Part shown: positions 979 to 27,490 of the stretch, piece after piece | Layout: each line of letters begins with the position of its first letter | How positions within the stretch are numbered: the stretch's first letter is position 1 | Assembly (NCBI GenBank): GCA_003176045.1 | Contig: PSRM01000258.1 | Location: forward strand, 1 to 32,150 | Length of the DNA stretch: 32,150 bases | Source of the DNA: Verrucomicrobiota bacterium | Lineage (GTDB): Bacteria > Verrucomicrobiota > Verrucomicrobiia > Limisphaerales > UBA8199 | Direction: 5' to 3' | Made by a program: the position numbers and the translations under genes | Notes under the pieces: model-generated | Database searches by the model: none | What the model saw: only the letters and a program-made list of their open reading frames with translations | What the model was told of the DNA's origin: nothing

Positions 979-1067
979 ATGAAGATTAAGATTAAGAGAA
1001 AGATTAAGATTAAGAGATTCCCTCTCTTTGCGCCTTTGCACCTTTGCGCCTTTGCGTTAATGCTTTT
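979..1067 (+). repeat. Two dispersed repeats forming the signal-peptide coding sequence
   Basis: Bases 979-1016 are the reverse complement of the AATCTT/CTTAAT block seen in noncoding DNA at 9135-9166 and 27338-27367. Bases 1024-1063 are the CTTTGCGCCTTTGCG repeat also seen at 17918-17937 and 26787-26807, and inverted at 17811-17830 and 26699-26718. Translated together they give the basic n-region and hydrophobic h-region of the PQQ protein. Confidence 0.8.
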
Positions 1068-2586
1068 GTCCTCCCGCGCCGAAGACTGGCCACAATGGGG
1101 CGGCCGCGCCATGCGCAACATGTATTCCACCGAGAAAGGCCTCCCCGATACCTTCGGCAAGATTGCCTTCAAACCCGGCACCGAAGACGTGGACGCCAAA
1201 GCCGCCAAGAACCTCAAATACGTCGTCAAGCTCGGCTCTCAAAGCTACGGCAACGCCACCGTGGCCGGTGGCAAAATCTTCATCGGCACCAATAACGAAA
1301 ACCCGCGCGACCCCAAGCACGTCGGCGACCGCAGCATCCTGCTTTGCCTGGACGAAAAAACTGGCGAATTCCTGTGGCAACTCGTCGTTCCTAAGCTCGC
1401 CGCCGGCAAGGTTAATGATTGGGAAAATCTGGGCCTTCTTTCCTCACCGACCGTCGAAGGCGACCGCGTCTATCTGGTCACCAGCCGCTGCGAGGTGCTA
1501 TGCCTCAATGCCAATGGGATGAAAAATGGCAACCAAGGGCCCTACAAGGATGAGGCTAAATACTACGTCAAAGACGTCCTGCTCGACCGTGGCAAACCTA
1601 CCGAACACCCGGCCCCGCCCGTGCAACCCGGTCCCAAGGACGCCGATATCATCTGGCGCTATGACATGATTGATGAACTGGGTGTGTATCCACACAATGC
1701 GTCAAATTGTTCTGTGCTCATCGTGGATGACATCATCTATGTCTGCACTTCCAACGGCCAGGACTGGACCCACTCGAACATCCCTTCACCAAACGCGCCC
1801 ACGCTCATTGCATTAAACAAAAAAACCGGCGAGTTCCTCGGCGAAGATGACGCTCACATCAGCCGGCGCATTTTCCACGGCCAATGGAGTTCGCCTTCCC
1901 TTGCTGTCGTAAATGGTCGCAAAGAAATTCTCTTTGGCGGCGGCGACGGCATTTGTTATGCCTTCGATCCCAAGCCGGTCAAGGAAGGTGACGATTTGTT
2001 CCTCAAGACCATCTGGAAATACGATTGCAATCCGCCCGATCGCAAAAAGTTCAAATATCCCGATGCCGAAGGCGCCAGCGAAATCAACTCCACTCCGGTC
2101 TTTTACAAAAACCGCATTTACGTCGCCGTCGGCCAGGACCCGGAACATGGCGAAGGCGTGGGAATTCTTTCCTGCATTGACGCCACCAAAACTGGCGACA
2201 TTACCCAGACGGGCAAGATCTGGTCATTCGACAAAATCCATCGCAGCATTTGCACCGCCTCGATCACGCCCGACGGCCTGCTCTTCATCGGCGATTTCTC
2301 GGGCTACCTCTATTGCCTCGATGCCGACACCGGCAAAGTCCACTGGACCCACGACCTCAAAGCGCACATCTGGGGCTCTACAATGGTCGCCGATGGCAAA
2401 GTGTACATCGGCGATGAAGACGGCGACCTGATGGTCTTCGCCGCCAGCAAAGAAAAGAAGATCCTCAGCGAAACGAACCTGGGCGCCCCCGTCTATTCCA
2501 CTCCCGTAGTTGCCAACGGCGTCCTCTACGTCGCCTCCAACACCCATCTGTTCGCCTTCTCCACGGCCAACACCACCCTTCCGTAG
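979..2586 (+). CDS. Secreted PQQ-binding-like beta-propeller repeat protein
   Basis: The protein has 535 residues from ATG 979. An upstream in-frame TTG at 943 exists, but ATG 979 gives a clean signal peptide: a very basic n-region (KIKIKRKIKIKR), a hydrophobic core, and probable cleavage after SSRA near residue 34, followed by EDWPQWGG, the usual mature start of these proteins. The body holds repeated beta-propeller blades of the form GKIFIGTNN, DRVYLVTS, GKVYIGDEDGDL, GVLYVASN, each followed by ALNKKTGEF or CLDADTGKV type strands. The family is periplasmic or extracellular. Some members are PQQ-dependent dehydrogenases and others are BamB-like scaffolds; no dehydrogenase-specific residues were recognised here. 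The signal-peptide coding sequence is made of two dispersed noncoding repeats (separate entry). The 2587-2776 gap after the gene is repeat DNA. Confidence 0.85.
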   Translation: MKIKIKRKIKIKRFPLFAPLHLCAFALMLLSSRAEDWPQWGGRAMRNMYSTEKGLPDTFGKIAFKPGTEDVDAKAAKNLKYVVKLGSQSYGNATVAGGKIFIGTNNENPRDPKHVGDRSILLCLDEKTGEFLWQLVVPKLAAGKVNDWENLGLLSSPTVEGDRVYLVTSRCEVLCLNANGMKNGNQGPYKDEAKYYVKDVLLDRGKPTEHPAPPVQPGPKDADIIWRYDMIDELGVYPHNASNCSVLIVDDIIYVCTSNGQDWTHSNIPSPNAPTLIALNKKTGEFLGEDDAHISRRIFHGQWSSPSLAVVNGRKEILFGGGDGICYAFDPKPVKEGDDLFLKTIWKYDCNPPDRKKFKYPDAEGASEINSTPVFYKNRIYVAVGQDPEHGEGVGILSCIDATKTGDITQTGKIWSFDKIHRSICTASITPDGLLFIGDFSGYLYCLDADTGKVHWTHDLKAHIWGSTMVADGKVYIGDEDGDLMVFAASKEKKILSETNLGAPVYSTPVVANGVLYVASNTHLFAFSTANTTLP

Positions 2587-3119: not shown

Positions 3120-4793
3120 ATGATTCCCCTAACGGTTATTTGCTTGTATTTGGTGGCCATCGCCATCATCGGCAGCTTCGCTTTCCGCAGGTCTCAGGCG
3201 AACACCGAGGACTTTTTCCTGGCCAACCGCGGCGTCGGCTCGATGGTTTTCTTCCTGTCTCTTTTCGCCACGAACATGACCGCCTTTGCCATCCTCGGCA
3301 GCTCAGGCCAGGCCTACCGCCAGGGAATCGGCATTTATGGCCTCATGGCATCTTCCTCCTGCTTCCTTATCCCACTAACGATTTTCTTTATCGGCACCCG
3401 CCTCTGGGCCATCGGTAAACGCTTCGGCCACCAAACCCAGGTCGCCTTCTTCCGCGACCGCTGGGAATGTGACGCCATCGGCACACTCATCTTCGTGCTG
3501 ACCGTGGTTATGCTCGTCCCCTACATGATCATCAGCATCATGGGCGGTGGCCGCGTCCTCGCCGACATCAGCAAAGACATGGTTTCTTACCCTCTCGGCT
3601 GTGCCATCGTTGCATTGGTGGTTACAGTGAACGTCTTCTTCGGCGGGATGCGAGGTACTGTCTGGGTGAACATCCTCCAAACCAGCATGTTCCTGATCTT
3701 TGGAGCGATAGCTCTGGCTGTGATTAGCCACAATCTGCCGCTCGGCTTTGGCGAGTACATCCACAAAATCGCGGCGAATCCCAAAACCAAATTCCTTGTT
3801 ACCCGCGAGAGGATGTCCGAAAGCTATTTCTGGAGCTATACCTTCATTCCGCTCTCCTCGATCATGTTCCCGCACATGGCCATCATGTGCTTTGCCGCCC
3901 GCCGCGTCACCGCCTTCAAGCGAACCGTCGTCCTCTACCCACTGGCCATCATGGCAATCTGGCTTCCCTGCATATTCCTCGGCGTCATAGGCGCCTTCCT
4001 CAAGCCCGGCCTTGCGAAACCCGATGGCGTGCTCCTGGTGATGCTAAGCGACTACGCCCCGCCGATTTTGGCCGGCATCCTCGGCGCCGGCATCATCTCC
4101 GCCGTTATGGGCTCCGACACCCACCAAGTCCTTGCCCTCAGCACCATGTTCACCAAAGACCTCTTCGCCCATTACGGCGGCAAAGACAAATATGGCGAAC
4201 GCGGCAGCGTCTATTTCGCTCGTGCGTTTATCCTGATCGTCACGGTCGTCGCCTATATCATCGCGCTCCTCACCCGGGAGACCATTTTCGAGCTAGCCGT
4301 CCGCTTCGCCTTCTCTGGGTTCGCTGCCATGGGCCCCGTCATGATCGCCGCCCTCTTCTGGAAACGCAGCACGAAATACGGCGCGCTTGCTTCCACACTC
4401 TGGGTCGCCGCCTGGCTTGTGCTCACCTGGTACCTTCAAAAAATCTCCGACGTCTCCGCCCCCAAACCCGGCGCCCCTCCGTTCATCATTTTTCCCGAAT
4501 TAGCGAACGTCGGGTTAGGCCACCTCTTCGAGCGCACCTCCGCCAACGTCACCGTCTTCGGCTTCCTCCCCGTCGTCCCGATGGTCCTCGGCTCCGCCGT
4601 CTGTATGATCATTTTCTCCTTGCTCACCCGACCTCCCACTCAGCCAACGATCGAGAAATATTTTTCAAAGCAGACTAGCGAAACTCTTTCAGCCAGGACC
4701 GTTTCGGAGTCCAAAGGGATCGCAGTGGCTTCAAACGAAAGCGCGGGAATGCCGCGCACTCCAAACGCTTCGCGAGGTAGCGGCGCCGTGTGA
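3120..4793 (+). CDS. Sodium:solute symporter (SSS) family transporter
   Basis: A 557-residue polytopic membrane protein with about 13 hydrophobic segments. The N-terminal region (TEDFFLANRGVGSMVFFLSLFA, then FAILGSSGQAYRQGIG) is the classic SSS start, covering TM1-TM2 and the sodium-site region. The central segment GAGIISAVMGSDTHQVLALSTMFTKDL matches the conserved SSS helix with an SD near a sodium site. The substrate cannot be read from sequence; the DUF3311 neighbour suggests a monocarboxylate- or pantothenate-like subgroup. No Shine-Dalgarno precedes ATG 3120. The last 17 or so residues (from SAGMPRTPNASRG) are encoded by a hairpin repeat element, and the TGA stop lies in its loop, so the natural C-terminus was probably altered by repeat insertion. 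Confidence 0.88.
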   Translation: MIPLTVICLYLVAIAIIGSFAFRRSQANTEDFFLANRGVGSMVFFLSLFATNMTAFAILGSSGQAYRQGIGIYGLMASSSCFLIPLTIFFIGTRLWAIGKRFGHQTQVAFFRDRWECDAIGTLIFVLTVVMLVPYMIISIMGGGRVLADISKDMVSYPLGCAIVALVVTVNVFFGGMRGTVWVNILQTSMFLIFGAIALAVISHNLPLGFGEYIHKIAANPKTKFLVTRERMSESYFWSYTFIPLSSIMFPHMAIMCFAARRVTAFKRTVVLYPLAIMAIWLPCIFLGVIGAFLKPGLAKPDGVLLVMLSDYAPPILAGILGAGIISAVMGSDTHQVLALSTMFTKDLFAHYGGKDKYGERGSVYFARAFILIVTVVAYIIALLTRETIFELAVRFAFSGFAAMGPVMIAALFWKRSTKYGALASTLWVAAWLVLTWYLQKISDVSAPKPGAPPFIIFPELANVGLGHLFERTSANVTVFGFLPVVPMVLGSAVCMIIFSLLTRPPTQPTIEKYFSKQTSETLSARTVSESKGIAVASNESAGMPRTPNASRGSGAV

Positions 4794-6162: not shown

Positions 6163-6167
6163 AAAAG

Positions 6168-6200
6168 GTTAAATGAGTTAAATGAGTTAAATGGTTAAAT
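6168..6200. repeat. TTAAATGAG tandem repeat
   Basis: Three and a half units of the TTTAAC-family repeat in reverse orientation, directly after the ALDH-like stop. The first possible start codon of the next gene (ATG 6191) is part of the repeat. Confidence 0.85.
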
Positions 6201-6688
6201 CGGAAGAAGCAATGGAAGCAAATCAACAATTCAAAACATTTGAGGACTTGGAAACGTACAAAGCGGCTCGTGCTTTCCGCAAAGGTATGTATGCTGTGAG
6301 CAGGCGCTTGCCATCTTTTGAGAAATTTGAGCTGGCAAGCCAGATCCGACGGGCCGCAGTGTCGCTCACCAACAACATCGCCGAAGGCCATGGACGATGG
6401 CACTGGCTCGATCATATAAAGTTCCTTCTTCAGGCACGGGGATCTTTGCAGGAACTTATAGATGATCTGAACACGCGTGAGGACGAATCGTACATCCCCG
6501 CGCCGGAGGTGGCTGAACTCAAACAGCGCGGCTGGCATGTCCTTAGGTTGATCAATGGCTATCTTCGACATCTTCGTGACCGCAAGACGGGAGACTCCTT
6601 TACGCTCCACGACGCACCTACTCCTTATGGAGACACCGATGACGATCTGGAGCCTTGGATTGCAAGTCTCACCTTTGAGCCACGATAG
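6191..6688 (+). CDS. Four-helix bundle protein (23S rRNA intervening-sequence protein family)
   Basis: A 165-residue protein. The core, FEDLETYKAARAF, FELASQIRRAAVSLTNNIAEGHGR and FLLQARGSLQELIDDL, is the signature of the 23S-IVP family (TIGR02436-type). These small proteins form pentameric four-helix bundles. They were first found in insertions within 23S rRNA genes, but many lie elsewhere in genomes; their function is unknown. Here there is no rRNA. The gene sits between two TTTAAC-type repeat tracts. The start may be ATG 6191, inside the repeat, or ATG 6212 (MEANQQFKTFEDLE), which better matches family length. The C-terminal 25 residues after DRKTGDSF are an acidic extension not usual for the family. 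Confidence 0.85.
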   Translation: MVKSEEAMEANQQFKTFEDLETYKAARAFRKGMYAVSRRLPSFEKFELASQIRRAAVSLTNNIAEGHGRWHWLDHIKFLLQARGSLQELIDDLNTREDESYIPAPEVAELKQRGWHVLRLINGYLRHLRDRKTGDSFTLHDAPTPYGDTDDDLEPWIASLTFEPR

Positions 6689-9058: not shown

Positions 9059-9197
9059 ACGTGAAACGTGAAACGTGAAACGTGAACGGCAAAGTTAGAT
9101 GGGTTAAACAGGGGCTCGCCCACGGCTCATAATTCTTAATCTTAATCTTTCTCTTAATCTTAATCTGTCCCGTGGATTGCGTGTTGAGTGTTGCGTG
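9054..9197. repeat. GTGAAAC heptamers, AATCTT block and TTGCGTG heptamers
   Basis: GTGAAAC units occupy 9054-9088, an intact AATCTT/CTTAAT block 9130-9168, and three units of TTGCGTG/TTGAGTG 9177-9197. The polyketide synthase stop is in the first tract and the flavoprotein start codon is in the last. Confidence 0.9.
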
Positions 9198-17800: not shown

Positions 17801-17810
17801 GACCGAAGTT

Positions 17811-17937
17811 TTTAACGCAAAGGCGCAAAGGAAAAAAACTAACCGCTAATGAACGCGAATCGACGCGAATGATTTCCGTGATTCGCGTTCATTCGCGTCT
17901 ATTCGCGGTTGTTTCTGCTCCTTTGCGTCTGCGTTGA
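17811..17937. terminator. Two nested inverted repeats between convergent genes
   Basis: The outer arms are TTAACGCAAAGGCGCAAAGG (17811-17830) with TCCTTTGCGTCTGCGTTGAA (17918-17937). The inner arms start with AACCGCTAATGAACGCGAAT (17840-17859) and end with CATTCGCGTCTATTCGCGGTT (about 17889-17909). It occupies the gap between two converging genes. Outer-arm words recur in the signal peptide at 1024-1063 and at 26699-26807. Confidence 0.6.
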
Positions 17938-26635: not shown

Positions 26636-26807
26636 GAAGGGTTCAGGGTTCAGGTTTCGGAATAGCAAATCGCAAATGGCCGAGAGTAGGCGCGGAGCTT
26701 TAATGCAAAGGCGCAAGGCTGACAGGAAAATTGGGGAAAGGAAAATGTTTCTGTCCAAAAATCTTTCTGTCAGTTTCTCCTCGGCTCTTTGCGTCTTTGC
26801 GTTAAAT
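26636..26807. repeat. GGTTCAG repeat and nested inverted repeats between folA and the pectate-lyase-like gene
   Basis: GGTTCAG heptamers lie at 26640-26655. Outer arms TTTAATGCAAAGGCGCAAGG (26699-26718) and CTCTTTGCGTCTTTGCGTTAAA (26786-26807) enclose an inner pair of GACAGGAAAAT/CTTTCTGTCAG type. The folA TAA stop (complement of 26802-26804) is part of the right outer arm. Confidence 0.8.
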
Positions 26808-27281
26808 CCGGGCCGCATAATGCGTCACCTTAAAGTCGGAGTGCTCCGCGATTTCCTCAACCACCTCGAAAGCATCTTCAAATGCCGGAAAAAAGGCATC
26901 GCCTTCCACCACTCGCTTGACGAGGGTGAGATACAAATCGGAACAAAGCGGCAGCGCTTGCTCATAGACCTGCGCGCCGCCGCAGATGAAGATCTGCCGG
27001 CCGGCAAATGCTCCGTTTGCTAAATCAATGTGCTCAAGCCCGGAGATCGTCTGCACTCCGGAAGGTGGCTGGGGAGAGCGAGACAATACTAACGTCGTGC
27101 GTCCAGGCAGCGGCTTTCCGATGGATTCAAATGTTTTTCGACCCATCACCAGCACATGCCCCATGGTCAGTTTCTTGAACCATTTGAAGTCCTCCGGCAA
27201 ATGCCACGGAATTCTGTTTCCCGCCCCGATCACCCGGTTCAGTGACATGGCCGCAACGGCTTTGAAGGGCCTCCCTTGCAT
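26802..27281 (-). CDS. folA: Dihydrofolate reductase
   Basis: A 159-residue enzyme reducing dihydrofolate to tetrahydrofolate with NADPH. FKAVAAMSLNRVIGAGNRIPWHLPEDFKWFKKLT contains the Met20-type loop and the catalytic acidic residue in LPEDF. GHVLVMGRKTFESIGKPLPGRTTLVLSR is the NADPH site, and IFICGGAQVYEQALPL the conserved GG pair. It follows thyA, whose reaction generates dihydrofolate; the pairing is common. The 209-base gap to thyA is repeat DNA. The start ATG 27281 directly follows TGATTTA heptamers and has no Shine-Dalgarno; the stop is in another repeat. Confidence 0.95.
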   Translation of the reverse strand: MQGRPFKAVAAMSLNRVIGAGNRIPWHLPEDFKWFKKLTMGHVLVMGRKTFESIGKPLPGRTTLVLSRSPQPPSGVQTISGLEHIDLANGAFAGRQIFICGGAQVYEQALPLCSDLYLTLVKRVVEGDAFFPAFEDAFEVVEEIAEHSDFKVTHYAARI

Positions 27282-27490
27282 TTATGATTTATGATTTATG
27301 ATTTATGATTTTCCAAGTCAGTCTGAGCCGTCCCTTCTTAATCTTAATCTTTCTCTTAATCTTAATCCCGACTCTGGAGCACCTGATTGTCCGTGCGAAC
27401 ACTGCGAAATTCCGACGATCTCGTAAATCGCAAATTGAAAATCGTAAATCCAAATGAGATTAAGATTAGGGGAAAGATTACAATTAAGAT
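27278..27490. repeat. TGATTTA heptamers and AATCTT blocks in the thyA-folA gap
   Basis: Four units of TGATTTA lie at about 27283-27312, a near-intact AATCTT block at 27338-27367, related AAATCG words at 27421-27450, and an inverted AATCTT block at 27454-27490. The whole 209-base gap between thyA and folA is made of these repeats plus one short unique stretch (27370-27420). Confidence 0.85.

Follow-up and report, generated by a model that had tools for sequence, protein, structure and literature searches.

The Sec signal peptide of a PQQ-like beta-propeller protein in the genome of an uncultured Verrucomicrobiota bacterium has probably been replaced by dispersed repeats that usually lie between genes. 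The gene is located in the window (the whole 32,150-nt stretch of DNA that was analysed), in an open frame at 943–2586 with an ATG at 979. Its 535-residue product matched PF13360 with E = 8e-22 and 78.4 bits, against a curated cut-off of 27.6. Residues 1–34 (979–1080) read MKIKIKRKIKIKRFPLFAPLHLCAFALMLLSSRA, after which the mature part begins with EDWPQWGG. The features of the locus and the copies of its two repeats elsewhere in the window are as follows.

883–960, no strand assigned: repeat-like inverted block ACAAAGAAACCAAGG / CTTTGTTTCTTTGTTGG, recognised from the sequence, with a period of 8 at 925–947
979–981, plus strand: candidate start ATG without a clear Shine-Dalgarno sequence
982–1017, plus strand: basic n-region KIKIKRKIKIKR, two perfect copies of AAGATTAAGATTAAGAGA (period 18, 100% match)
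1018–1023, plus strand: linker TTCCCT (FP), non-repeat by sequence
1024–1061, plus strand: hydrophobic h-region, a CTTTGCGC array (repeat match) encoding LFAPLHLCAFAL and part of M28
1060–1080, plus strand: c-region MLLSSRA with a signal peptidase I-like S-R-A site; the first two bases are repeat and the remainder unique DNA
1081–2586, plus strand: mature PQQ-like beta-propeller starting EDWPQWGG, assigned from PF13360 and orthologues
9134–9166, minus strand: noncoding copy of the AAGATT block, exact reverse-complement match
27336–27367, minus strand: noncoding copy of the AAGATT block, exact reverse-complement match
17809–17831, minus strand: noncoding copy of the CTTTGCGC repeat (repeat match)
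26785–26808, plus strand: copy of the CTTTGCGC repeat, in which minus-strand TTTAAC holds the stop codon of a reductase-like gene (26802–27281)

The two copies of the 18-mer AAGATTAAGATTAAGAGA encode codons 2–13 (KIKIKRKIKIKR), giving a net charge of +8 ahead of the hydrophobic core if translation starts at 979. The CTTTGCGC array at 1024–1061, which ends in TTAA, supplies most, not all, of that core. A preliminary description of this DNA had presented the signal as made of two repeats, which holds for the n-region and most of the core but not for the FP linker or for MLLSSRA, and the latter is all that is left of the signal when the repeats are taken away. Signal quality was scored by a simple home-made rule (10-residue hydropathy, charge and a small-residue cleavage site) rather than by a trained predictor; on this scale the 10-residue Kyte–Doolittle mean of the core was 2.52, 62nd among 83 orthologues (median 2.26) and in the normal range. 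S-R-A precedes E35, with small residues at −3 and −1 and at the same cleavage position as in the orthologues. We infer that the gene is translated from 979 and that its product is exported by the Sec pathway and cleaved at A34/E35. The open frame also holds a TTG at 943, a possible start for a longer product, and the coding score becomes strong no earlier than about codon 38. The inverted block at 883–960 belongs to a repeat-rich gap behind the upstream gene, whose stop is at 873.

The match between the n-region codons and the AAGATT block, proposed in the preliminary description, is borne out by exact reverse complements of positions 983–1015 at 9134–9166 (33/33) and of 984–1015 at 27336–27367 (32/32). 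The core was likewise said to be a repeat found between genes; its repeat identity stands, but the copy at 26785–26808 overlaps the stop of the reductase-like gene. Across the whole genome (7.74 Mb, 372 contigs; reversed patterns as controls), the 32-mer of the AAGATT block had 151 matches at ≤3 mismatches, 45 of them exact, and CTTTGCGCCTTTGCGTTA had 230 at ≤2 mismatches, 55 of them exact. Since both reversed controls gave 0, the repeat identity is far beyond chance. Most copies of both families are noncoding. Only one of the 55 AAGATT copies examined, that of the window gene, clearly acts as an n-region, and two of 30 exact CTTTGCGC copies form a signal core. Repeats covered about 11.6% of noncoding versus 1% of coding bases (first mask, with N runs still counted). 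The CTTTGCGC words translate to LCAFAPLR in all forward frames, and one frame of the AAGATT word gives KIKIKR, another RLRLRE. Neither array in 982–1061 is an inverted-repeat unit, as MITE-type terminal inverted repeats would require. The cyanobacterial STRR sequences are also mostly intergenic, with tandem repeat words of 7–9 bp scattered through the genome, but the words found here are different and occur in a Verrucomicrobiota genome; to our knowledge, STRR sequences are not known as signal-peptide donors.

The closest named records to the window protein are from Verrucomicrobiota MAGs (Limisphaerales, Pedosphaera). The mature start (E/Q)DW-Q-WGG, in fuller form (E/Q)DWPQWGG, is conserved among the 83 orthologues, and nearly all of them carry an ordinary signal peptide directly before it. 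In G010, for example, the repeat-free signal MKQVVAALLVALTSSA is followed by QDWPQWGG and starts a few bases past the stop of the upstream gene. The signals at this place in G010, G004 and nearly all other orthologues are unrelated to that of the window gene. Because ordinary signals end at the same cut site, export is ancestral and the signal itself changed in this genome. The comparison thus supports a putative replacement of an export signal, one of two possibilities raised in the preliminary description, and speaks against the other, the birth of one, as the protein was already exported and only its signal was rebuilt. A search for repeat-free orthologues with the same N-terminal residues, which would have argued against repeat capture, came out negative; their signals are unrelated, and the species that have LCAFAL in common also have the repeat DNA in common.

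Two readings of the start codon would change this picture. Translation might begin inside the second repeat, at the TTG at 1036, so that only the core is translated and the KIKIKR block is an untranslated leader. The AAGATT repeat is indeed mostly located in gaps, frequently in frame with an ATG further downstream (L033, L011), and the ATG at 979 lacks a clear Shine-Dalgarno sequence. Nevertheless, we consider this start improbable: it yields MHLCAFALMLLSSRA, which retains the repeat-made core and loses every basic residue ahead of it, unlike the orthologues; an ATG could be assigned to 81 of the 83 orthologue signals (by a rule that favours ATG); and the frame is ATG-led and open across both repeats. 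Still less probable, and in our view very unlikely, is that the signal was lost, the repeats are noncoding upstream DNA and a cytoplasmic protein starts at 1060 or later. Repeats fill gaps throughout the genome, and open frames through them arise by chance; however, repeat-built LCAFAL cores, equally far from the mature start, persist in two other species, the c-region retains a good cleavage motif, and similar replacements are found in other exported genes of the genome. The sole downstream ATG, at 1060, would leave MLLSSRA, which is too short for export.

An alternative that keeps the start at 979 is insertion, in which the repeats entered an existing signal whose original start and core were lost later. 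This has counterparts elsewhere, as the repeat in VER1 (L071) lies inside the signal with a native-looking segment, AIAAGCITLSANA, behind it, and in a DUF2950 protein (L272) a repeat stands between an ortholog-like start and a native-looking core. For the window gene it seems unlikely, though less so than either change of start, as the DNA upstream of its repeats shows no recognisable trace of an older n-region or core. VER1 and L272 resemble insertions, and the window gene a replacement.

In the replacement that we favour, the CTTTGCGC array would have become attached directly ahead of the old cleavage region, providing the hydrophobic core, and the AAGATT array upstream of it would have provided the start-proximal lysines and arginines in this lineage. 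Recombination or insertion is the presumed route by which the repeats arrived, with slippage, recombination between copies and insertion as candidate processes. Since charge, hydrophobicity and a small-residue cleavage site are all that a signal peptide requires, low-complexity DNA can serve if one of its words reads basic (KIKIKR) and another hydrophobic (LCAFAPL).

Repeat-built cores also occur in G007 and G008, two members of one sister genus, as LLCAFALLPLSTRA and LAAFALMPLSTHA, with the same spacing from the mature start as in the window protein. The h-region DNA is collinear with that of the window in both; the repeat part matches at 24/33 in G008 and 20/33 in G007, the c-region at 19/27 and 20/27, respectively. 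Upstream, the two signals consist of different repeats, namely TTACATGAG-type words, to which G007 adds a GCGTTTGGAGTGCG-type hairpin. Each lineage has its own basic region. In a fourth species (VER1), a nearly complete inverted-repeat copy of the CTTTGCG element is located inside the signal, and in a fifth (L110) the n-region MIKIKIMNGV is an independent one of AAGATT type. The gene trees placed the window gene outside a group that includes the clean genes of G004 and G010 as well as the repeat-bearing ones of G007 and G008, and a single clade of the repeat-bearing orthologues (the window gene, G007 and G008) was rejected (p-AU 0.009). Both a single gain of the repeat core with later losses and two to three gains are possible. 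The repeat is rare in the sister genus, with 8 copies in G007 and 10 in G008 versus 162 here (≤1 mismatch), and the sole exact copy in G007 is the one in the signal peptide. A search among the sister-genus copies for further signal peptides failed, most of them having no coding frame.

The same process has probably affected other exported genes of this genome through other repeat families. We surveyed 1.82 Mb (about 24% of the genome), with 1215 genes called by a hexamer score and repeated 14-mers masked, for signal peptides overlapping masked repeats. Many of the 65 automatic hits were weak (TTG/GTG starts, poor cores) and were left uncounted, and a strict search for repeats entering coding frames gave few cases. 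The convincing cases mostly use repeat words other than those of the window. One, L182, uses the same CTTTGCGC repeat: it is a 1016-aa protein that starts with MFRLFLAPLLLCAFALSSSA, followed by Q. The 490-aa secreted protein L239 has a core of TTTGGTG words, and its orthologues, at 83–86% identity, have ordinary signals such as MKPSRSFAFPFLASLVLAAAVPSYA. The Gfo/Idh protein L260 also has a TTTGGTG-word signal, where its orthologues have short ordinary ones. In the HlyD-type lipoprotein L269, the 50-residue lipoprotein signal is one long hairpin (−76.6 kcal/mol over 180 nt), and the orthologues have ordinary lipoprotein signals. In L272, TGGTCAG words are inserted between the start region and the core of the signal. 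Further cases are L185, L187 and the 1243-aa L217, whose n-region KRKIKLKKKSW is a degenerate AAGATT copy. For three same-genome cases beyond the window gene, close orthologues have ordinary signals. Ready-made repeats thus appear to have been swapped in as export signals in this genome, and about 10 strong cases in a quarter of it suggest, by extrapolation, dozens genome-wide. Separately, when the L269 hairpin element was part of a protein query, there were 132 matches in this genome versus 7–22 in relatives; some of the 132 are ordinary HlyD homologues, and an expanded family of the hairpin element is suggested.

Repeat words made up 0.8–2.1% of the first 90 nt of genes versus 0.1–0.25% of gene bodies, so repeats enter coding sequence at gene starts. 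An initial test showed repeats to be enriched in signal-peptide genes (OR 2.9, p = 0.001), and with noncoding-only words and ATG-only starts the frequencies were 6.5% versus 2.8% (OR 2.4, nominal p = 0.044). After repeat-made cores were removed, the enrichment in signal-peptide genes was not significant (OR 1.5, p = 0.46), because such cores help to produce the signal-peptide call. For this reason we make no claim that exported genes are targeted by repeats; an enrichment specific to them is suggested but not proven. More simply, repeats may drift into the starts of all kinds of genes and persist where they are usable as, or within, a signal peptide.

The complement of a strand that encodes a hydrophobic stretch tends to be polar or basic (xTx versus xAx codons), which allows an inverted repeat to code for an n-region and, behind it, an h-region. 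L269 is the clearest case of this, with L260 and L071 less clean. The repeat copies in L269 and L071 are hairpin-like, unlike the window arrays. It is conceivable, although we put it forward tentatively and rate it below an even chance, that dispersed simple and inverted repeats provide this lineage with a permanent stock of signal peptides, the n- and h-regions of dozens of exported proteins being built from at least five repeat families, with inverted repeats predisposed to the role.

Precedents for repeats entering proteins exist. In Yersinia, the predicted signal peptide of YPO1552 is formed in part by the RU-2/YPAL repeat, and the signals of YPO1552 homologues are unrelated (Delihas 2007, PMC2759123; PMC2229807). 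Both there and in the window gene, signal DNA comes from a dispersed repeat family located mostly outside genes, and homologues have unrelated signals. However, the Yersinia element is MITE-like and 168 bp long, and the putative exported protein that contains it has 144 aa. Here the signals of long conserved exported proteins are rebuilt from short simple repeats belonging to several families, and the n- and h-regions of the window signal come from two different repeats. The Rickettsia palindromic elements (RPE; Ogata 2000) are, according to a passage in PMC2229807, palindromes of 105–146 bp inserted in-frame in conserved genes for various proteins, where they are tolerated and neutral or slightly harmful; judged by that passage, they differ from the present repeats, which supply a functional part of the protein. 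Among Enterobacterales orthologues, signals change by gain or loss of the N-terminal region or by point mutation (PMC5952966). The new N-termini there were not traced to repeats (a text search of that article for "repeat" returned nothing), and here, unlike in that gain and loss, export was kept and the signal replaced. A Schistosoma gene family has a common dispersed signal sequence linked to repeats (PMC3434034). Our literature searches on verrucomicrobial repeats with signal peptides found nothing relevant. Relative to YPO1552/RU-2 and RPE, the new aspects are the involvement of several simple-repeat families and long conserved proteins, the occurrence of several cases in one genome, and the construction of one signal from two unrelated repeats.

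Signal peptides diverge so quickly that the origin of a new or replacement targeting signal can seldom be traced. In the present case the donor repeats can still be recognised and the mature parts of the proteins are conserved, which reveals the source, the joint and the direction of the change. Should the pattern extend across the genome, repeats that are mostly noncoding act as a reservoir of sequence coding for protein targeting, and in repeat-rich genomes export signals will be misplaced by gene callers that shorten or lengthen N-termini.

Repeats also meet genes at other kinds of junction. In the window, a GTTAAATGA repeat array at 6167–6200 supplies the ATG of a 23S rRNA-intervening-sequence-family protein (6191–6688, PF05635), and at 4733–4793 the C-terminus GMPRTPNASRGSGAV of a sodium:solute symporter is encoded by a REP-like hairpin element, AAAGCGCGGGAATGCCGCGCACTCCAAACGCTTCGCGA. 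Elsewhere in the genome, an AAGATT copy at L025 (G000:C178, near 33131) reads IKIKRKIKIK into a glutamate-synthase-like N-terminus, GLYDPQFEHDACGVGF; there is no obvious ATG between the two, and this may be a non-secreted N-terminal extension. At L213, L222 and L232, a REP-like palindrome, GGACANGAATGTCCGCGCTCC, gives the ATG followed by Ser-Ala-Leu-Arg, and through this palindrome several unrelated exported or pilin-like proteins begin with MSALR.
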